From Phoenix dactylifera (Eukaryota; Streptophyta; Magnoliopsida; Arecales; Arecaceae), in assembly GCF_009389715.1 (NCBI RefSeq), contig NC_052404.1, positions 7,896,745 through 7,960,744 of the forward strand: a stretch of DNA of 64,000 nt, read 5' to 3'. The notes under the pieces are model-generated. The model saw nothing but the letters and a program-made list of their open reading frames with translations, did not search any database and was not told the DNA's origin. This document shows, one piece after another, positions 2,792 to 59,186 of this stretch (position 1 is its first letter; each line of letters begins with the position of its first letter). The position numbers and the translations under genes are program-made.

Positions 2792-3622
2792 GTAACTTTT
2801 TTAATCCAAGATTAATGCATTTGTTCGAGAAAAGATCGAGGGAATTGATTTAAGATTGCGTTTCTGATTCTTCTTCTATGGCCGATTTCTGGTGGTTTGA
2901 GGAGATGAGATTTTTCTCGGTCCTTCTGGATTCTTCTGCTGTGGCCTCTTCTGGGTGGGGAAATTTAAATCAATGCTCACCTGTTTGGGGTTTGAATGAA
3001 TCTCCAAAATTATTGATTTTGTTGGTAGAAAAGTCCGAAAAATTCAATTTTGATCAGAGTTTTGTATGGTTTTGGCTGCGATTTTTGAGAATTTGTTCGT
3101 GGCTAAGAGGAGTCCTTTTTAGCTGGTATTTTCTGTTCTCCTCTTTCATTGAGAGAATGATTTTATTTCTGCTGGTGTTTTATTATCCGAGAGTCATGTG
3201 GGTCTTCTTTTTCTTTTTCCGGCGTTACTCTCATGGATTTGAAAGAAAGGAATATCCTTTATGAGAGATTTTTGGCTATGGTGTTGTAAAAAGAGTTTGT
3301 TTTGTTGATTTTCAATGGATTTCATGAAAAGATCTACCATTTCTCTCCCTGAAGGATCTGTTTTAAATTATCTATCCTTCGGCAAGAAGAAATATGGAAA
3401 CTAAGACTCATTTCAAGATTTCCAATTTCTTCGCCAGTCGAAGACCTGATTTTCCTATATATTTTTCTGATGGAAGAAAATAATAGATTCTTTGCATGAA
3501 GACTTGGTGGCAAGTTGAGCTGAATTTTTGCCTAAACTTTGCTTAATTTCTTGCTCCTTATAAGTTTTTTTTTTGTCCCTTTGCTTGTTGGATTCATTGC
3601 ATTTTTTGGTCTTGGAAGCCAG
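2792..3622 (+). other. Leader (5' UTR) intron of the RING E3 gene
   Basis: The sequence before 2792 ends in CTCGAAG followed by GTAACT, a good donor. A T-rich tract ending in GCCAG at 3622 is a good acceptor. The joined leader then runs 32 bases to the ATG at 3655. The 128-codon open frame at 2878-3264 inside this stretch is T-rich, has no domain, and is better explained as intron. Leader introns are common in plant E3 ligase genes. Confidence 0.6.
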
Positions 3623-3654
3623 ACAAGAAGGTTGAAGAGAAGGGCAGGAAGACG

Positions 3655-4674
3655 ATGGACGAGGCTCTGGTTGCTAGATACTGGTGCCACATGTGCTCAC
3701 AGATGGTAAATCCTGTGATGGAGGTGGAGATCAAATGCCCCCATTGTAATAATGGATTTGTAGAAGAAATGGATGGTGGGGGAGACTTGGATGCCGCCGA
3801 TCTGGGCTCTGACCGATCCCTCTCTCTTTGGGCTCCAGTCTTGCTTGGAATGATGAGCAGGGGCTCCCGACGCCGAAGGCTTCAAAGGGAAGAAGAAGAG
3901 GATGACTCTGGTCCGCATCGTTACTCAGAATCCCTTCGTCGAAGGAGGAGGAGCTTGGCCATCCTACAGCTGCTGCAAGCCCTCCGGGAAACAAACAGAT
4001 CAGAGTCTGATAATTCTGAGGGTGAGAGGGAGACGGAAAGGGTTAGAGAAAGGGAGAGGGAGCGTGTGATCCTAATCAATCCTTTCAACCAGGCTATAAT
4101 TCTCCAAGGATCCTTCGATGCAGGCGAAACTCAGAGACAGAATTCGAACAGCAACAGCTTTGGTGCTTCTTTCGAAGACTACTTTCTTGGGCCTGGCCTG
4201 GATCTTTTGTTGCAGCATTTGGCAGAGAATGATCCTAACAGATATGGATCACCGCCTGCTCAGAAAGAGGCAATTGATGCAATGCCCACTGTAAAAATTG
4301 TGGAAGCCATGAGCTGCTCCGTCTGTTTGGAAGACTTTGAAATAGGTGGAGAGGCTAGGGAGATGCCTTGTAAACATAAATTCCATTGCGGGTGTATACT
4401 ACCATGGCTGGAGCTCCACAGCTCGTGCCCAGTTTGTAGGTTTCAGATGCCAGCAGATGAGTCGAAGGATTCAAATGGAGGTGGTAACAGCAATAGGGTG
4501 GAGGGTGGTAGTGGGGATGGTGGTGATGCGGGTAATGGAGGGAATGGGAGGAGATTCTGGTTGCCAGTGCCTTGGCCTTTCAATGGGCTGTTCTCCTTAT
4601 CAGGGTCCCAGAGCAGTGGGAATTCTTCTTCGGCACCGCCGTCATCGTCCACCCCCGATAGTAACTCAGCCTAA
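3655..4674 (+). CDS. RING-H2 E3 ubiquitin ligase with N-terminal zinc ribbon (RING1/BCA2-like)
   Basis: A single-exon CDS of 339 aa. The N-terminus has a zinc ribbon (C11, C14, C28, C31) of the type found in plant RING1-like and BCA2/RNF115-like ligases. The RING-H2 domain spans about residues 221-261 with ligands C221, C224, C239, H241, H244, C247, C258 and C261, and the W251 typical of E2-binding RING domains. By family knowledge it transfers ubiquitin from an E2 to substrates, acting in cytosol or nucleus. The substrate cannot be told from sequence. Between the domains lies an acidic and basic low-complexity stretch (about 75-138) with an Arg/Glu-rich run, encoded by purine-rich DNA. The tail after residue 270 is rich in Gly, Asn and Ser. 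The ATG at 3655 begins the conserved start of the family, just before the zinc ribbon. No membrane segment is seen. Confidence 0.93.
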   Translation: MDEALVARYWCHMCSQMVNPVMEVEIKCPHCNNGFVEEMDGGGDLDAADLGSDRSLSLWAPVLLGMMSRGSRRRRLQREEEEDDSGPHRYSESLRRRRRSLAILQLLQALRETNRSESDNSEGERETERVRERERERVILINPFNQAIILQGSFDAGETQRQNSNSNSFGASFEDYFLGPGLDLLLQHLAENDPNRYGSPPAQKEAIDAMPTVKIVEAMSCSVCLEDFEIGGEAREMPCKHKFHCGCILPWLELHSSCPVCRFQMPADESKDSNGGGNSNRVEGGSGDGGDAGNGGNGRRFWLPVPWPFNGLFSLSGSQSSGNSSSAPPSSSTPDSNSA

Positions 4675-35142: not shown

Positions 35143-36020
35143 GATAGAGAGAAAAACGGATCGTCCAGCCCACAACTAAAAGGCCGCCAAATTTCGGCCT
35201 AGTAAACACCAACGATAAATAACTAAATCTTTACTTCGGCCCAGAGCCAGCTCGTCGTCGGAACTCCACCTAAAGCTCCACCAACTTCGGACATTTGCCG
35301 ACTCCTCCGACTAAGTTCGGGGTGCCTCCAGACAAATGCTGACCCATCCTGACCAAGTTCAGGACGCCAACCCCAGCAATACATAGCATACGCTCTGACC
35401 CTCGAGCTCGGAGCACTCCCTCGAGTACACCTCGAAACCTGGAAAACCAAGCTACTCCCAATCTACACCAAGCCGGCCTCATTAAACGCCTGACGCGACT
35501 ACTTAACAAGCTCGGCCTCGCCAACAACCACATCCACGTGCGGGCCTATGCCCCCCTACGTGGCCGTACTCCACCACACTGCCATGTCATGTCTCCATAA
35601 CCGGCCGACAGCAGTCAGACGGCACCTTGACTACTCTGGTCATACCCTGTTGTAGCTGTCAACGCCCTACCGTTCTTAAGAACGGGTTGTGCTGCACGTC
35701 ACCAGCCTACCTGAGCTGCACGCCATCCGGCTCAGAGCCATACCCCCTCATGATGGGGAATGACAGCACCTCCGTCATCTGGGCCATCCTACTGAGGCTA
35801 TAAATAGCTTGGTCAGGTAATTCCTAAGGGGCCTTTGGCTGGACCAAATTTACCTACTTTAACTTGATCGTCGGAGGACCCTCACCGGAAAAACCAGTGA
35901 GGCTTTGTGCAGGTTCGCGGCCGTCGCGCAGGAGGTGGTTCCCGTCTTCCCCTTTCCACATCGGTAGCTCCCTTGGCTCCACCGGCGTGGTCACCCTCGG
36001 GCCAGATTTGAACCACAACA
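35143..36020 (+). mobile_element. Solo-LTR-like segment, Ty3/Gypsy type, plus orientation
   Basis: GC-rich, unlike its flanks. It has a plus-strand TATA box (CTATAAATAG at about 35799) followed by a CTTGATCGTCGGAGG motif that is shared, inverted, with the LTR at 36108-36751. A plausible end is CCACAACA at 36020. A plausible start is TGATAGAG at 35143, with imperfect flanking 5-mers GACGG and GATGG. No internal region follows, so a solo LTR is the best reading. The ends are tentative. Confidence 0.5.
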
Positions 36021-36107
36021 GATGGATAATTCGGTAAGTTTGTTGATCTAAAGTGAATTTTGAGATTCTCTTTTGCATTTTCATATTATATAAAGAGATA
36101 TACTACT

Positions 36108-36751
36108 TGTTGCTGGTGGTCCAAACCGAGAACGATTGGCACAGCGGTGTGAACGGGGTTCCGTTGGAGTTGCCTTGGTTGGTGTTGATTGCGCTCCACC
36201 TTCCACCGGAAAACCTGCAAGCAAGCCTCGCACCACCACTGGGGTAGTGGGGGCCCTCCGACGATCAAGTCAGAGGAGATTGGAGGAGAAGGAGAGATAA
36301 TAGTAGCAAGTAAGAGAATGCTCTGGAAGTTCTTGCCTACCTCCCCCCTTCTCCCCCCAGCCGCATATATACCAGGCTGGGGGGTCCTTCTGGGGGGTTG
36401 GTCATCGTGTAGCACGATGGAGCTGCCACTGACATGGCCGTTACAGGGCGTCGTGGGGCAGCGCTGGGTACGGCCATGACAGGGCGTAGTGGAGCTCCGC
36501 TTTGTACGGCTGTTACAGGGGATCGTGGAGCAGCGCCGGATACGACCGTTGCAGGGAGTAGTGGAGCAGAGGGCCGCGGCGTGCCTCTGGGGAATAGCCT
36601 GTCGTTGTCGAGAGATGTCCGACTCGGGGTCGGGCTGCGGAGCCGAAGATGTCCGACTCGGGGTCGGATTGCTGGATCAAGGGGCTGCCGTAGTCTTCCT
36701 GGGCGCGCGTGCCGGTCACATGGGGCATGGTGGCTAAGTTCCCCCGTAACA
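36108..36751 (-). repeat. LTR of the gag/protease element
   Basis: Read on the minus strand it begins TGTTACGGGG and ends CAGCAACA, about 644 bp. It carries two copies of CCGACCCCGAGTCGG, four copies of a 36-bp unit (about 36431-36575), a TATA box (GGTATATATGC, about 36365-36375) and a downstream CTTGATCGTCGGAGG block. The start is fixed by the adjacent polypurine tract; the end is set by the CA and is less sure. Confidence 0.75.
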
Positions 36752-36754
36752 GTA

Positions 36755-36768
36755 GCCCCCCACTTCCG
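36755..36768 (-). other. Polypurine tract
   Basis: GGAAGTGGGGGGC directly upstream of the LTR start on the minus strand, the usual site of plus-strand priming in LTR retroelements. Confidence 0.8.
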
Positions 36769-37050
36769 AGCCTGAAACCAGAAGGGGAACGGGTGAAGGG
36801 AGTGATGCTTCGAGATTGCCGCCATCCCTCGGAGAGGCGCGCGCGCTTCGAGCTCCCCGCCTTCTTTATGGCGTATGGCGGTTGTTGCTGACCTGGCAGT
36901 CTGAGGATTTCGGCGGACATCCTTAATGGCGTCGATTCGCCTTTGGGGCGCGAGCGATCCTTCGGCAGAAACAGAGTGTTTCTTCATTTCACTTTCGTCC
37001 TTCCTCTTTTCAACTCTTGGTAGCGTCTCGCCGACTCCTGACTCTCGAAG

Positions 37051-37648
37051 TTCTTCCGGCGCTAGGCCAGGCATCCGAGGGTTAGGCCTCAGGAGATTCT
37101 TCCGGCGCTAAGCCAGGCATCCGAGGGTTAGGCCTCAGGAAATCCTTCCGGCGCTAAGCCAGGCATCCGAGGGTTAGGCCTCAGGAAATTCGTCCGGCGC
37201 TAGGCCAGGCATCCGAGGGTTAGGCCTCAGGAAATTCTTCCGGCGCTAAGCCAGGCATCCGAGGGTTAGGCCTCAGGAAATTCGTCCGGCGCTAGGCCAG
37301 GCATCCGAGGGTTAGGCCTCAGGAAATTCTTCCGGCGCTACGCCAGGCATCCGAGGGTTAGGCCTCAGGAAATTCTTCCGGCGCTAAGCCAGGCATCCGA
37401 GGGTTAGGCCTCAGGAAATTCGTCCGGCGCTAGGCCAGGCATCCGAGGGTTAGGCCTCAGAAAATTCTTCCGGCGCTAAGCCAGGCATCCAAGGGTTAGG
37501 CCTCAGGAAATTCGTCCGGCGCTAGGCCAGGCATCCGAGGGTTAGGCCTCAGGAAATTCTTCCGGCGCTAAGCCAGGCATCCGAGGGTTAGGCCTCAGAA
37601 AATTCTTCCGGCGCTAAGCCAGGCATCCGAGGGTTAGGCCTCAGAAAA
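37051..37648. repeat. 46-bp tandem array, 13 copies
   Basis: Thirteen head-to-tail copies starting every 46 bp from 37051, each containing GCCAGGCATCCGAGGGTTAG and CTCAGG. Variants TTCTTCCGG/TTCGTCCGG and CTAAGCC/CTAGGCC alternate through much of the array, which suggests growth by pairs. It abuts the 121-bp array exactly at 37649. Confidence 0.97.
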
Positions 37649-40209
37649 TTCCGCTCGTTGGTCGGCCAAGGCTGGCGCAAGCCGAGGCGACCGGTCGGGG
37701 CTTCAGGCTAGTTTGCTCCCGGGATGATCATCGGGTTAGCCTGGCATCCGAGGGCCAAGCCTCGGGAGATTCCGCTCGTTGGTCGGCCAAGGCTGGCGCA
37801 AGCCGAGGCGACCGGTCGGGGCTTCAGGCTAGTCTGCTCCCGGGATGATCATCGGGTTAGCCTGGCATCCGAGGGCCGAGCCTCAGGAGATTCCGCTCGT
37901 TGGTCGGCCAAGGCTGGCGCAAGCCGAGGCGACCGGTCGGGGCTTCAGGCTAGTCTGCTCCCGGGATGATCATCGGGTTAGCCTGGCATCTGAGGGTTGT
38001 CAGGCCTCAGGAAATTCCGCTCGTTGGTCGGCCAAGGCTGGCGCAAGCCGAGGCGACCGGTCGGGGCTTCAGGCTAGTCTGCTCCCGGGATGATCATCGG
38101 GTTAGCCTGGCATCCGAGGGCCGAGCCTCGGGAAATTCCGCTCGTTGGTCGGCCAAGGCTGGCGCAAGCCGAGGCGACCGGTCGGGGCTTCAGGCTAGTC
38201 TGCTCCCGGGATGATCATCGGGTTAGCCTGGCATCTGAGGGTTGTCAGGCCTCAGGAAATTCCGCTCGTTGGTCGGCCAAGGCTGGCGCAAGCCGAGGCG
38301 ACCGGTCGGGGCTTCAGGCTAGTCTGCTCCCGGGATGATCATCGGGTTAGCCTGGCATCCGAGGGCCGAGCCTCGGGAAATTCCGCTCGTTGGTCGGCCA
38401 AGGCTGGCGCAAGCCGAGGCGACCGGTCGGGGCTTCAGGCTAGTCTGCTCCCGGGATGATCGTCGGGTTAGCCTGGCATCCGAGGGCCGAGCCTCGGAAA
38501 ATTCTGCTCGTTGGTCGGCCAAGGCTGGCGCAAGCCGAGGCGACCGGTCGGGGCTTCAGGCTAGTCTGCTCCCGGGATGATCATCGGGTTAGCCTGGCAT
38601 CCGAGGGCCGAGCCTCGGGAAATTCCGCTCGTTGGTCGGCCAAGGCTGGCGCAAGCCGAGGCGACCGGTCGGGGCTTCAGGCTAGTCTGCTCCCGGGATG
38701 ATCATCGGGTTAGCCTGGCATCCGAGGGCCGAGCCTCGGGAAATTCCGCTCGTTGGTCGGCCAAGGCTGGCGCAAGCCGAGGCGACCGGTCGGGGCTTCA
38801 GGCTAGTCTGCTCCCGGGATGATCATCGGGTTAGCCTGGCATCCGAGTGCCGAGCCTCGGGAAATTCCGCTCGTTGGTCGGCCAAGGCTGGCGCAAGCCG
38901 AGGCGACCGGTCGGGGCTTCAGGCTAGTCTGCTCCCGGGATGATCATCGGGTTAGCCTGGCATCCGAGGGCCGAGTCTCGGAAAATTCCGCTCGTTGGTC
39001 GGCCAAGGCTGGCGCAAGCCGAGGCGACCGGTCGGGGCTTCAGGCTAGTCTGCTCCCGGGATGATCATCGGGTTAGCCTGGCATCCGAGGGCCGAGCCTC
39101 GGAAAATTCCGCTCGTTGGTCGGCCAAGGCTGGCGCAAGCCGAGGCGACCGGTCGGGGCTTCAGGCTAGTCTGCTCCCGGGATGATCATCGGGTTAGCCT
39201 GGCATCCGAGGGCCGAGCCTCGGAAAATTCCGCTCGTTGGTCGGCCAAGGCTGGCGCAAGCCGAGGCGACCGGTCGGGGCTTCAGGCTAGTCTGCTCCCG
39301 GGATGATCATCGGGTTAGCCTGGCATCCGAGTGCCGAGCCTCGGGAAATTCCGCTCGTTGGTCGGCCAAGGCTGGCGCAAGCCGAGGCGACCGGTCGGGG
39401 CTTCAGGCTAGTCTGCTCCCGGGATGATCATCGGGTTAGCCTGGCATCCGAGGGCCGAGTCTCGGAAAATTCCGCTCGTTGGTCGGCCAAGGCTGGCGCA
39501 AGCCGAGGCGACCGGTCGGGGCTTCAGGCTAGTCTGCTCCCGGGATGATCATCGGGTTAGCCTGGCATCCGAGGGCCGAGCCTCGGGAAATTCCGCTCGT
39601 TGGTCGGCCAAGGCTGGCGCAAGCCGAGGCGACCGGTCGGGGCTTCAGGCTAGTCTGCTCCCGGGATGATCATCGGGTTAGCCTGGCATCCGAGGGCCGA
39701 GCCTCGGAAAATTCCGCTCGTTGGTCGGCCAAGGCTGGCGCAAGCCGAGGCGACCGGTCGGGGCTTCAGGCTAGTCTGCTCCCGGGATGATCATCGGGTT
39801 AGCCTGGCATCCGAGGGCCGAGCCTCGGAAAATTCCGCTCGTTGGTCGGCCAAGGCTGGCGCAAGCCGAGGCGACCGGTCGGGGCTTCAGGCTAGTCTGC
39901 TCCCGGGATGATCATCGGGTTAGCCTGGCATCCGAGGGCCGAGCCTCGGGAAATTCCGCTCGTTGGTCGGCCAAGGCTGGCGCAAGCCGAGGCGACCGGT
40001 CGGGGCTTCAGGCTAGTCTGCTCCCGGGATGATCATCGGGTTAGCCTGGCATCCGAGGGCCGAGCCTCGGAAAATTCTGCTCGTTGGTCGGCCAAGGCTG
40101 GCGCAAGCCGAGGCGACCGGTCGGGGCTTCAGGTTAGTCTGCTCCCGGGATGGTCATCGGGTTAGCCTGGCATCCGAGGGCCGAGCCTCGGGAAATTCCG
40201 CTCGTTGGC
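37649..40209. repeat. 121-bp tandem array, about 21 copies
   Basis: Near-identical units of 121 bp (two of 124 bp), each with TTGGTCGGCCAAGG, GCAAGCCGAGGCGACCGG, CCCGGGATGATCATCGGG and GGCATCCGAGGGC. About 40 bp of each unit is homologous to the 46-bp unit next door. Variant patterns repeat in blocks of two and more units. The 81-82-codon open frames that recur every 121 bp come from the unit itself and are not genes. Confidence 0.97.
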
Positions 40210-40376
40210 CACGCGCCTGTCGCTTGCCACTCGACGGGATTTCTCCGTGTCCAGCTACGATCGTGTTTCTCCTCCTCTCCAAGCGTCGCCTGGGGAGCAC
40301 CAGAAGGGCATTAAATGCTAATTGAAGCTTTACCTGGGAAATCGGACCGCCAGTTGCTGCTTGCAAGGAGTGTCAG

Positions 40377-42579
40377 TTAAGCGGCCGCGATACGCGCGTT
40401 CTTCGAGGCGGATGCGGCCTGGGCGCGAGCGGAGATACGTGGACCGAGGGATACATGCCGCCCGGAGTGTCCTGCACAAAGAATGCAATTAAGGAGAACG
40501 ACGCTTAGGGCTTCCACGGGCTCCTTCCCTTTGAGAGTCGCTAGGAAACATTGCCGTGCGGTCGGTTGGTCACCTCGGACCTCTCCGATCCCAGCCGCCG
40601 TGGGAAACCGCATGAGCAAGTGGTACGTAGAGACCACCGCACGAAGGGCGTTCAGTCCAGGTCGTCCGAGGATAGCGTTGTAGGCCGAGGGAACACGGAC
40701 GACCAAGAACCCGAGTCGCACCGTGGCTTCTGCGGGTGCAACGCCCGCAGTCACAGGCAGCTCAACGACTCCTTCGGCCGGGACAGCGTCACCAGTGAAT
40801 CCGATGAGGGGGGTGGATGTTTTGTGCAACAATTGTCTGGTCAAGCTCATTTTTTGGAAGGCCTCGTAAAACAAAATATCAGCTGAGCTTCCACTATCAA
40901 CAAGAACACGCCTTATATCATAGTTTGCCATAGTGAGGGAGATCACCATGGCGTCATCGTGGGGAGTCTGAACCCCTTTTACATCCTCATCAGAAAAGGT
41001 GATTACATTACCGACCCTCTGCCTCTTTACGATGGCCGTCCCTGACGCTTCCGCCGAGCCCCCTGCGTTCCTCACGGGCCGTGAGCAGCCCCCAGTGATA
41101 GTGTGGATCACACCCGCAACGGGTCGATTCTGCTCTCGAGGCTCCGGAGGAGCCGGGTCGGCTGGACGCGGGTCCGCGGGGGGACGTCGGTCGTTCACAT
41201 ATCGACCGAGACGCCCTCGGCAGATGAGAGCCTCGATCTCGTCCCGAAGCTGGAAGCAGTCTTCGGTGTCGTGGCCGTGGTCCCGGTGGTACTCACAGTA
41301 CGCCCGAGAGGGCCTCCTCCCAGGAATCTTCTTCATCTGTCTCGGGACCGGGAGGTCCTCCCGCCCCTTGATTTCCATGAGGATCTGGGCCCGGGGAGTC
41401 AGGAGAGGAGTGTACCGGTTGAAACGTCGGGGCGGAGAACGAGGGCGTAGGGCGCCGTGGTTCCTCGCCGGCGACAGGCTTCTGCGCCGACGTTGAGGCG
41501 TCGGGCTCCTCCTCTGGCGTGCCTCTTTTCGCCTTTTCTTCCCGAGCTTTGGAGGGATCTCGGCGGCCTCCTTGCTCCGGTGGGCGGCCGCCTCCTCGGC
41601 GTCCGCATACTGGTTCGCCCGGGACAACAGCTCCGGAAAGCTCCGCGGCAGGCGTTTGTCCAGGGAGAAGGTGAGTCTGCCCTTTCGGAAGCCACGCTTC
41701 AGGGCTGAAAGAGCCACCTCCTGGCTCAGGTTCCGGACTTCCAGCGTAGCCTTGTTGAAGCAGGTGAGATAATCCCGCAAGCTTTCTCCCTCGTTTTGCC
41801 GGCTCGTTTTGCCGGACATCAAAGAGGGAGTCGGAGACCAGTCGCCGCCGGCTACTGACGGCGAAATGGGTGATGAAGAGGCGAGTAAACTGGTCGAAGG
41901 ACTGGATTGAGTTAGCCTCCAAGCCGGCGAACCACGCCCTTGCCGGGCCACGGAGGGTTGCTGGGAAAGCCTTGCAGAGGAGAGGGTCTGATGCTCCGTG
42001 GAGGAGCATAAGGGTCCTGAAACTCTCGACGTGATCCCGCGGGTCCGCTGCCCCGTCATAGGGCTCGATCGCCGGCATCTTGAACCCCGGCGGATTCGGG
42101 GTCCGCAGGATCCTCGAGGCTAGCGCCGGCTGGGAGAAGATCTCCAAGTCGGCGAAGGGATCTTTGGAGTGGCCCTTCAGGACCTGGAGTTGTCGGTGGA
42201 GATCGTCCACCCGCCGGTCCAGGGAGCGCGACCGATGGGTGGGAGACAAGGAGCACCGAGAGGGGGACCGACTGGAGCGCGGGTTCCTTGAGGACTGGGG
42301 GGTCTGGGAACGCGCCCGGGCCCGCCTCTCGTACCCCGCGCAGCTCCGATGGGAAGGTCCCGGCAGAATGGACCGTGCTCGAGAGTCTTCCTCGCGCCGG
42401 CGCTCCTCCCCATGGGAGAGGAAGGAGCGCGGGTTGAGGAGGACAGGTGAGCGCTCAGGGAGCAACGGCTCCTGGGCCCGCTGCGGCGCCCGAGACATCA
42501 CACCCTGCAGGTTCTGCACTGCCTCTGCGAGGGTGCGAACCTGCTGGGCTAACTGGTCGAACTGAGCGGCTTCGACCAT
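40377..42579 (-). pseudogene. Retroelement gag and aspartic protease region
   Basis: Fossil coding part of the element. The order on the minus strand is: N-terminal Gln/Arg/Ser-rich part, gag core (with ARAWFAGLEA and FDQFTRLFITHF), a Cys/His block (YCEYHRDHGHDTEDC) and the protease motif LVDSGSSADIL. It reads as Ty3/Gypsy. It is not intact, with about one or a few breaks, and pol domains do not follow. Open frames on the opposite strand here are shadows. Confidence 0.85.
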
Positions 42580-42650
42580 CTGAATGGGAGGTGGAGCGGT
42601 GGAGTGTTGCTGAGAACTGAGCGGCTTCGACCATCTGTTGGCTCACTTAA

Positions 42651-47290: not shown

Positions 47291-49613
47291 ATGTATCATC
47301 ATCAGCATCATCAAGGTCCTAGCAACCTCCTTGCTTCTAGGGTAAGCTTTCCTCCAGAGAGGCATTTGTTTTTGCAAGGTGGAAGTGTTCCTGGGGAGTC
47401 AGGACTAGTTCTATCAACTGATGCGAAGCCTAGATTGAAATGGACTCCTGAGCTCCATGAACGTTTTATAGAGGCAGTCAATCAACTCGGCGGACCAGAT
47501 AGTGAGTATTTGAAGAACGAGAGACAGAGGAAATAATGTAAACATAGTTTACAGTAAAAGCAAACAGACCCTGTCCTGTTAGCTAATTTGCGATCATCAT
47601 GTCTTGCAGAGGCTACTCCAAAAACAGTCATGAGGCTCATGGGGATTCCAGGACTAACTTTATATCACCTAAAAAGCCATCTGCAGGTACTCGTAGACTT
47701 TTTGATTCTTGTTAATTGTTCACACAGTTATTTTTTGTTTGACGTTTGTACTGGATCTGTTGATTCTTGTTTGATGTTCATACTCCATGAACTAAATAGA
47801 TCTTTTGGATTTACAGAAATACAGGCTGAGTAAAAGTCTGCAAGCTCAACCTAATACTGGGACTACCAAGAATGGTAGAAGATCTGTCCCCTAGAATTTA
47901 CCTTGGATTTCCAAAGAAGAAACAAGTTGATTACACATTTCTTGTATGACAGTTATAGGTTGCCCGCTTGCAGCAGATAGGACAGCTGAAGGTAATGGAT
48001 CACTAATGAGCAATACTACCGTTGCATCCCAGACAAACAAGTAAGAGACAGAGAAAATACTCTAGAATGTTTTCCATGAATGTTTAAGGCCTTCAAATAA
48101 TAGTTTGTCTTAATTTCAGAACCATGCAGATAAGTGAAGCACTTCAGATGCAAATTGAAGTTCAGAGAAGACTGCACGAACAACTTGAGGTAAGGGCAAG
48201 ATATCATAGTTCTACTACAAATTGATAAAAGGCAAGAAAGTCCATAATATCTTCTTTGGAATAATATATTCTAGTTTTTTTTAAAAAAAAAATCAACATA
48301 TAATCTCCTGAAACATCAAACTAGAATTAGCTAACAAGGAATTCACTATTCAGAGAGACACCCAATATTATCTATTGCAAACAGAGCAAAATCAGATCTT
48401 CATTTTCATAAAAAAAGGCATGCCTGTTTTTTTAAAAACAATTAGAGAATTCAAAGTTTCACATGAACTATTTTTCCTGATGTAACATAGAGCTGGCTTT
48501 GTTATGAAGAAGTATATACACAAGGAAATTTAGAGAGAAAGGGTTAAAGATAATAGAGACCAACAAAGAGAATTTTTGTTTCACTTTCATATCACCATAT
48601 TCCATGTAAACTATTTTGTGCTCTTTAAAACCTACTTACCAAATCACTAAAAACACATTACAATCAAACAAGTTTAGGATGGTCAATTCAAAATCCATTT
48701 GCAGGGTTCAGGAACAATAAGGGAACCCTGCCATCTACCACTACTGATACTTTTTTGCCATTTGAATAAAGAAATATGATAATTGTTGGTGCAAGCTTCT
48801 TTGTTAGCTCTCCTCTTATTCCTGACTCTATATCTTTACTGAAATTTATTTTGGATCACATAGGTGCAAAGACACTTGCAGCTTCGGATAGAGGCACAGG
48901 GGAAGTATTTACAGTCAGTGCTAGAAAAGGCCCAGGAGACTCTTGGGAAGCAGAATTTGGGTTCGGCAGGGCTGGAAGCTGCCAAAGTGCAGCTCTCTGA
49001 ACTGGTCTCCAAGGTCTCAAATGAATGTCTTAACACTACATTTCCAGGTTTGGAAGAAATTTCTGGCTTTCATACCCTGCAAGCACATGCAGCCCAATTT
49101 GCTGATTGTTCGGTCAATAGTTATTTAACCTCGTGCGAAGGATCCCAAAAGGAACAAGAAAAATATAACGTCAGTATGGGTACCTATCTTGGCAATTCCC
49201 ACCCATGCCTGCAACAATTCAGAGCAGATACTGGGCTTGAACAGGCTCAACTTGCATGGCATGGAGATTTGAATGAGCAGAAGACATTCTCTCCATCCGT
49301 TTTACAAGATTCAGAAGTGACTTTTTTCCCGGTCCAGAGGGACTCTAGAACCTTAACAATGAACATCAAGGCTGAAAGAGAGAAAGTAGACAGCAGCACT
49401 GTTTCTGATGCACGACGAAAAGAAAAAGATAGCAAGGATGCTTTCCTTGAACGAAACAGCAAGAGACCTGCAGCCCTACAAGAAAGGGGAAAGGAGTCAA
49501 ATGGGTTTGGCCTCCAAAGTGTAACAACTCAACTGGATCTAAATGCCCATGAAGAGAATGATGGTCCTCCAAATTGCAAACAGTTTGATCTAAATGGCTT
49601 CAGTTGGAGCTGA
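47291..49613 (+). CDS. MYB-CC transcription factor, MYR1/MYR2 (PHR1-like) type
   Basis: A DNA-binding regulator of the GARP/MYB-CC family, whose members include phosphate-starvation and flowering regulators. Six coding exons: 47291-47501, 47610-47686, 47817-47874, 47959-48040, 48120-48189 and 48864-49613, giving 415 aa in phase. The single MYB repeat spans about 46-103 with KPRLKWTPELHERF and the SHLQKYR signature. The CC coiled coil (about 147-191) includes LHEQLE and runs across the exon 5/6 junction. The tail holds LDLNAH and ends in FDLNGFSWS, the same ending as I recall for Arabidopsis MYR2; the DLN boxes resemble EAR repression motifs. The ATG at 47291 is the first base of its exon and gives the family's MYHHQ-type start. 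The open frame upstream of it is the leader intron. No defects seen. Which paralogue it is cannot be decided here. Confidence 0.93.
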
Positions 49614-58209: not shown

Positions 58210-58741
58210 TTAGGGCCTTCCGGGAGTCCGAGGATCATGGCGGTTGTTTGCTCCAGATCCTGGGTAGTCATTGAACTCTAAGTCGATCCTTCCATTCACA
58301 AGTACTCCCTTCTCCTCAAGTGTTTCTCTGGTGATCACCTGTTCCAACAAGTATGCAAGTGAGAAGTGGAAGAAGGAACTTATGCAGTTAACTAGCCTTA
58401 TATATATATATATATATTAATAAAAAATCATGGCCTAGCTAATAGGATGAGCTTGATGGAAGCCTAATATTTTCAGAAAGTCTTGTTTGAGGCTAAACTT
58501 TGCCTAATAGTCAACAAGTTACGACGACACCCGTGACATGCAGCAGGATTCCAATCTTCATCTCTTCAGATGAAGGGGACTGTCCTTACCTACTCTTAAC
58601 AGAGAAATTAGAGCTAAGAAATGGCATAAGAACTCATACAAATCCCTGAGATATTGTTAGATAGAGCCAAGAACACTGCCATCCTCAAAACATGAGGAAC
58701 AGAAGCCCTTATTCAACCACATCGCCCTCTGTGAGTATCTG

Positions 58742-58786
<45 letters not shown>

Positions 58787-59078
58787 ACCTGGTCTGCAAC
58801 CTTTACTGCTGTTGCTCCTTGGTTCCTTAATTCAAGGCTTCCTGCGAAGCAAACCATAGCAGATAACATCAGTGCGGTCCTCAGATAAAATAACAATAAA
58901 TCATAGCAGAAGGTAATAGAACCCAATTGATTTTTTTTTTTCCTTCTCAAGAAGAAAATAGGGCATAGAATCTACGAAGAAGAACAGTACTAGATAGAGG
59001 CACTGCATCCAGAGGAAGAAGGCATAGCAAGAGGAACAACAGCGTCAAGAAGTGAATCAAAAGCTTTTTCTGATCCAT
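58210..59078 (-). CDS. PSY-like secreted peptide precursor
   Basis: A predicted 89-aa precursor of a tyrosine-sulfated growth peptide. Three exons: 59078-58991, 58841-58789 and 58338-58210, with GT-AG ends and matching phase. Residues 1-25 are a signal peptide (MDQKKLL start, then a Leu/Phe-rich core). The mature end then reads AVPLSRSLELR, like the AVPTTRSL start of related plant precursors. The C-terminus carries NDYPGSGANNRHDP followed by RTPGRP. DY with a downstream AN..HDP matches the PSY1 core DYGDPSANPKHDP, where the Tyr is sulfated and Pro residues are hydroxylated. By family knowledge such peptides are secreted and perceived by leucine-rich-repeat receptor kinases to adjust growth and stress balance. 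A TATA box lies about 100 bp upstream (59179-59186). The exons are too short to stand out, which is why it is easily missed. The exact PSY paralogue is not decided. Confidence 0.85.
58747..58787. repeat. Compound (GT)n(GA)n microsatellite at a splice donor
   Basis: GTGTGT followed by GAGAGA, ending at the GT donor of intron 2 of the PSY-like gene. On the coding strand the intron therefore starts GTTCTCTCTCTC and passes into CACACA. Confidence 0.95.
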
Positions 59079-59178: not shown

Positions 59179-59186
59179 TTTATATA
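59179..59186 (-). promoter_or_regulatory. TATA box of the PSY-like gene
   Basis: TATATAAA on the minus strand, in the context CTATATAAACCCC, 101 bp upstream of the ATG at 59078. Spacing fits a leader of about 70 nt. Confidence 0.75.

Follow-up and report, generated by a model that had tools for sequence, protein, structure and literature searches.

The window, that is, the whole stretch of 64,000 nucleotides of date palm DNA that was analyzed (C13:7896745-7960744), contains a three-exon gene on its minus strand; all gene coordinates given below are window positions. Coding exon 1 (58991..59078) is 88 bp in length and encodes a signal-like segment (MDQKKLLIHFLTLLFLLLCLLPLDA) followed by VPLS. 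It is connected through intron 1 (58842..58990; 149 bp, phase 1, GT-AG) to coding exon 2 (58789..58841), which is 53 bp in length and encodes pro-region. Intron 2 (58339..58788; 450 bp, phase 0, GT-AG) is followed by coding exon 3 (58210..58338), 129 bp including the stop codon, which encodes pro-region and the PSY domain. As the original prediction had claimed, the three exons join in phase into one frame with a stop; the product is an 89-residue precursor, MDQKKLLIHFLTLLFLLLCLLPLDAVPLSRSLELRNQGATAVKVADQVITRETLEEKGVLVNGRIDLEFNDYPGSGANNRHDPRTPGRP. The PSY domain, DYPGSGANNRHDPRTPGRP, was placed by its motif; it covers residues 71–89 (58213..58269, minus strand) and forms the C-terminal end, reaching the stop. 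Residues 1–25 (59004..59078, minus strand) form a putative signal peptide with a basic start and a strongly hydrophobic core (hydropathy mean 3.12 over 10 residues), and cleavage would take place after A25. In seven other modelled loci of the same genome, the 10-residue mean of this segment is 2.52–3.15. The TATA box that had been predicted, TATATAAA, was found at 59179..59186 on the minus strand; it begins at 59186, 108 bp upstream of the ATG.

The T content is 41 and 34% in the two introns and 13 and 18% in exons 2 and 3, respectively; it is 39% in exon 1. The donor of intron 2 (GTTCTC), which we take to be off the usual consensus, is identical across four copies of the gene. It abuts CT and CA microsatellites (58746-58786), and the closest copy of the gene, located on C3, also has the CT run next to this donor. 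In the repeat search, the surroundings of the gene yielded nothing beyond direct repeats of microsatellite type and weak inverted pairs. On the minus strand, the longest frame within the gene that starts with ATG is of 70 residues (58869-58657); this frame, 104 codons from stop to stop, passes through intron 2, so the earlier remark on open reading frames is correct within the gene. The description of the gene as hidden holds in that no long single frame is present; that it is unusually hidden was overstated. Plant genome annotation does not depend on single open frames. PSY genes with introns are known from tobacco (PMC12153210) and wheat (PMC11641228), at least in the portions of these sources available to us, and a PSY gene split by introns is therefore nothing special.

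With the ATG and the motif in the last exon fixed, 504 three-exon models with GT-AG introns are formally open; the gene model thus rests on conservation, not on uniqueness. A six-frame scan of the window gives a single instance of the motif DYxxxx[AP]NxxHxP, represented here by DYPGSGANNRHDP (residues 71–83 of 89), against 0.0007 expected from residue frequencies. None was present in 60 Markov sequences as long as the window; without the [AP] requirement, one occurrence was observed among the same 60 sequences. Searches of Pfam and PDB with the product gave no match. One NCBIfam model, NF038382 (RaxX family RiPP), matched residues 71–87 weakly (E 0.049), with a score of 14 bits where the cut-off is 40. 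The window protein is no member of the RaxX family; the weak match agrees with the mimicry of PSY by RaxX of Xanthomonas described in the accessible part of PMC10519359. Elsewhere in the window, an open frame of 375 codons at 3547-4674 gave matches of the RING zinc-finger and zinc-ribbon types, and a block of high G+C content (up to 0.66, in 2-kb steps) with a minus-strand retrotransposon gag match is located at 36001-42642; the tRNA scan found none.

According to the available text of PMC7913133 and PMC11641228, PSY precursors are recognized by the motif, an Asp-Tyr start, a length of 60–200 residues, a motif position within the second half, and similarity to PSY1 by BLAST. The window protein, 89 residues in length, carries the motif in its second half, beginning with Asp-Tyr. 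The strings DYPGSGANN and GANNRHDP both occur in published literature. As far as the consulted part of PMC11534595 goes, DYPGSGANNRH is contained in Arabidopsis PSY6 (At1g74458) and PSY8 (At3g47510), and it is the same in the window gene. The precursors are similar in size, 94 residues for AtPSY6 and 85 for AtPSY8. Compared over the mature domain only, the proteins differ behind this core, which is followed by TPH in AtPSY6, LPR in AtPSY8 and DPRTPGRP in the window protein. Among the published mature peptides compared, within the source excerpts at hand, the nearest is soybean GmPSY-XSP2 (DYPGTGANNRHDPKTPGGP), which was detected in xylem sap carrying a sulfate on Tyr2 and hydroxyproline at position 16 (PMC9369194, in part). 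Sixteen of 19 residues are identical between GmPSY-XSP2a/b and the window domain; both are 19 residues in length, start with DY, and have P16 and a terminal P. The window domain has S5 in place of T, R14 in place of K and R18 in place of G, and the evidence for sulfation is that of the soybean peptide. Tomato xylem exudate contains DyPGSGANNRHTp, sulfated and hydroxylated (PMC9028419, in the section available). This peptide, of Solyc03g115950, shares DYPGSGANNRH with the window domain and then continues with TP; it is shorter and has T at position 12, where the window domain has D. Taken together, the family motif, the near-identical MS peptides of soybean and tomato, the AtPSY6/8 core and the duplicates of the same structure described below bear out the prediction of a PSY-like hormone precursor. 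Among the papers searched, none dealt with a date palm peptide hormone with sulfated tyrosine, a result that says nothing on database annotation; for sulfated PSY peptide hormones in Elaeis, the search listed one general review.

The 773-Mb assembly (2391 contigs) was searched with single proteins, and the counts are lower bounds. The first search gave at least 11 matching places, three within the gene itself and eight in seven other loci (L009-L015). For all seven, a three-exon reading with phases 1 and 0 was possible; because resemblance to the window protein was one of the criteria for choosing the models, the agreement in structure in part follows from the method, and the direct alignment of L009 is the more independent evidence. 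For L012, L013 and L014, the automatic 80-bp pick for exon 2 was replaced by a 59-bp exon resembling that of L011. In the models of L009, L010 and L015, exon 2 is 53 bp in length, as in the window gene, and the GT and AG ends of intron 1 are also present. A TATA box is located at -106 in L009, at -100 in L010 and L015, and at -71 in L012-L014; L011 has no TATA box within 200 bp of the ATG. Three further loci, found with other queries and read around the motif only, are located on C15 (DYPVPGPNGRHTP), C48 (DYDDGGANPKHDP) and C11 (DYDYAGPNSRHDP). DY, N, H and P are kept in all ten other loci, seven modelled and three motif-only; as the queries contained the motif, this retention is not an unbiased figure, and copies that lost the motif could be missed. 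The AtPSY1 mature peptide gave no match in the genome; with 18 residues, this query is weakly informative.

Including the window gene, the genome holds at least 11 PSY loci, perhaps nine genes if the three similar copies on C6 and C1966 represent a single gene. These three copies (C6, at about 5.07 and 6.07 Mb, and contig C1966) are nearly identical; two of them are mirrored, each with a MYB-CC neighbour, about 1 Mb apart. They could represent a recent inverted duplication or a duplication in the assembly. L013 and L014 have identical coding sequences and could be a single gene that was assembled twice.

The window gene shares its neighbourhood with several of these copies. The window contains a MYB-CC match at 48864-49613, and the order pyruvate kinase (minus), MYB-CC (plus), PSY (minus) is found on C13 and on C3 near 6.4 Mb and near 17.8 Mb; at the last place, there is a second pyruvate kinase match on the opposite strand. 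On C12, MYB-CC and PSY are present, with no pyruvate kinase among the matches listed on C12. Weaker MYB-CC matches lie within about 13 kb of PSY at two places on C6 and on C15, in a different relative orientation. In total, MYB-CC is found within about 25 kb of PSY at seven places (C13, two on C3, C12, two on C6, and C15), which are seven of the 13 matches listed. For the PSY loci on C8 and on the 35-kb contig C1966, there is no MYB-CC nearby among the matches listed. These shared neighbourhoods are probably old duplicated blocks that retained the hormone gene, with a change of orientation on C6 and C15.

The closest copy, L009 (C3:6479900-6483000, near 6.48 Mb), aligns to the window gene with 80% identity over 1356 bp. 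It retains the TATA box (within CACTATATAAA), the start and stop codons and all four splice sites. The exons contain one indel, which is of 3 bp; the introns contain eleven, nine of which are not multiples of 3. The identity is 90.9% (80/88) in exon 1, 86.8% in exon 2 and 80.6% (104/129) in exon 3, compared to 79.9 and 81.5% in the introns and 82.1 and 80.2% in the flanks; exon 3 is thus no better conserved between the two copies than introns or flanks. The L009 mature peptide, DYRESGPNRSHDPRIPAGP, keeps 11 of the 19 residues, including the family anchors (DY, N, H and P). Counted at sites on which the two outgroup copies agree, the window gene has no change in its mature domain and L009 has seven; in the rest of the precursor, each has four. 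The binomial p for 0 versus 7 is 0.016 and the Fisher p against the rest is 0.077, in a relative-rate count made after seeing the alignment. The count, noticed after the fact, suggests that the mature domain diverged on the side of the C3 copy and that the window hormone resembles that of the older copies.

Ka/Ks was calculated for 11 pairs. The ratio is 0.74 for the window gene versus L009 (bootstrap 0.39–1.55, an interval that includes 1), 0.32 versus L010 (0.15–0.61) and 0.37 versus L015 (0.20–0.72); for L010 versus L015, it is 0.32 (0.17–0.59). Calculated without bootstrap, it is 0.41 for L009 versus L010, 0.55 for L009 versus L015, 0.25 for L011 versus L012, and 0.31 for L012 versus L013, the last with two changes in all. 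Of the remaining pairs, two are saturated at silent sites and one is without change. Judged by these ratios, purifying selection is visible against the older copies L010 and L015, but not against L009.

A ratio indistinguishable from 1 against the closest copy is what a decaying duplicate would give, i.e. a former PSY gene that is now a pseudogene or unexpressed. We consider this very unlikely, because the window gene has no stop or frameshift, its TATA box and splice sites are common to L009, the seven changes counted in the mature domain, at the sites of outgroup agreement, are all on the side of L009, and both ratios against the older copies are low. Still less likely is that the gene is right and one junction is different. 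For example, use of the next in-frame exon 1 donor (exon of 103 bp, five extra residues) gives a model that is formally open and ranked second; however, the chosen donor is preceded by CTA (L009, L010) or ATA (L015), giving first exons of 88 or 91 bp, and all three copies also have the exon 2 ends of the chosen model. A chance open arrangement of three exons about a chance motif has negligible probability: the many open models make an open model weak by itself, but the motif is hardly expected by chance, and the paralogues have the same exon ends and synteny.

We conclude that the locus is almost certainly a real, intact three-exon gene of the known PSY hormone family, as far as its DNA can tell. 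The basis of the PSY reading is the coding structure, the family motif and conservation in duplicates of the same genome. By analogy with the family, the mRNA would be spliced at both introns and the precursor would enter the ER; the Tyr of DY is the residue that TPST would sulfate, and P16 of the domain, a proline close to the C-terminus, would be hydroxylated. Maturation of PSY includes trimming by subtilases, and an RXLX-type site is cut by SBT6.1 in RGF6 (both in the part of PMC7913133 at hand). RSLE (residues 30–33) is of the RXLX kind and straddles the junction of exons 1 and 2; it is a possible early cut site only. Subtilases would finally release a peptide of about 19 residues, with the predicted modified form DY(SO3)PGSGANNRHDPRTPGRP and Hyp at position 16. 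In the available text of PMC10519359, which covers Arabidopsis PSY5 and PSY6, receptors of the PSYR1-3 type drive stress responses when unliganded and allow growth once a ligand is bound. The date palm peptide would likewise bind LRR receptor kinases of the PSYR type, which would signal stress when empty and let growth proceed when occupied.

The gene is an ordinary one, not new in kind, as the same genome holds several other PSY copies. It is conceivable, if rather doubtful, that since the latest duplication the ancestral hormone was preserved in the window gene and altered in the C3 copy, the two forming a ligand pair heading toward separate receptor preferences. The analysis adds a well-supported PSY gene and its syntenic duplicates from a palm to a family that tunes growth against stress, and these duplicates offer a natural test, on a small scale, of which hormone positions are free to change.
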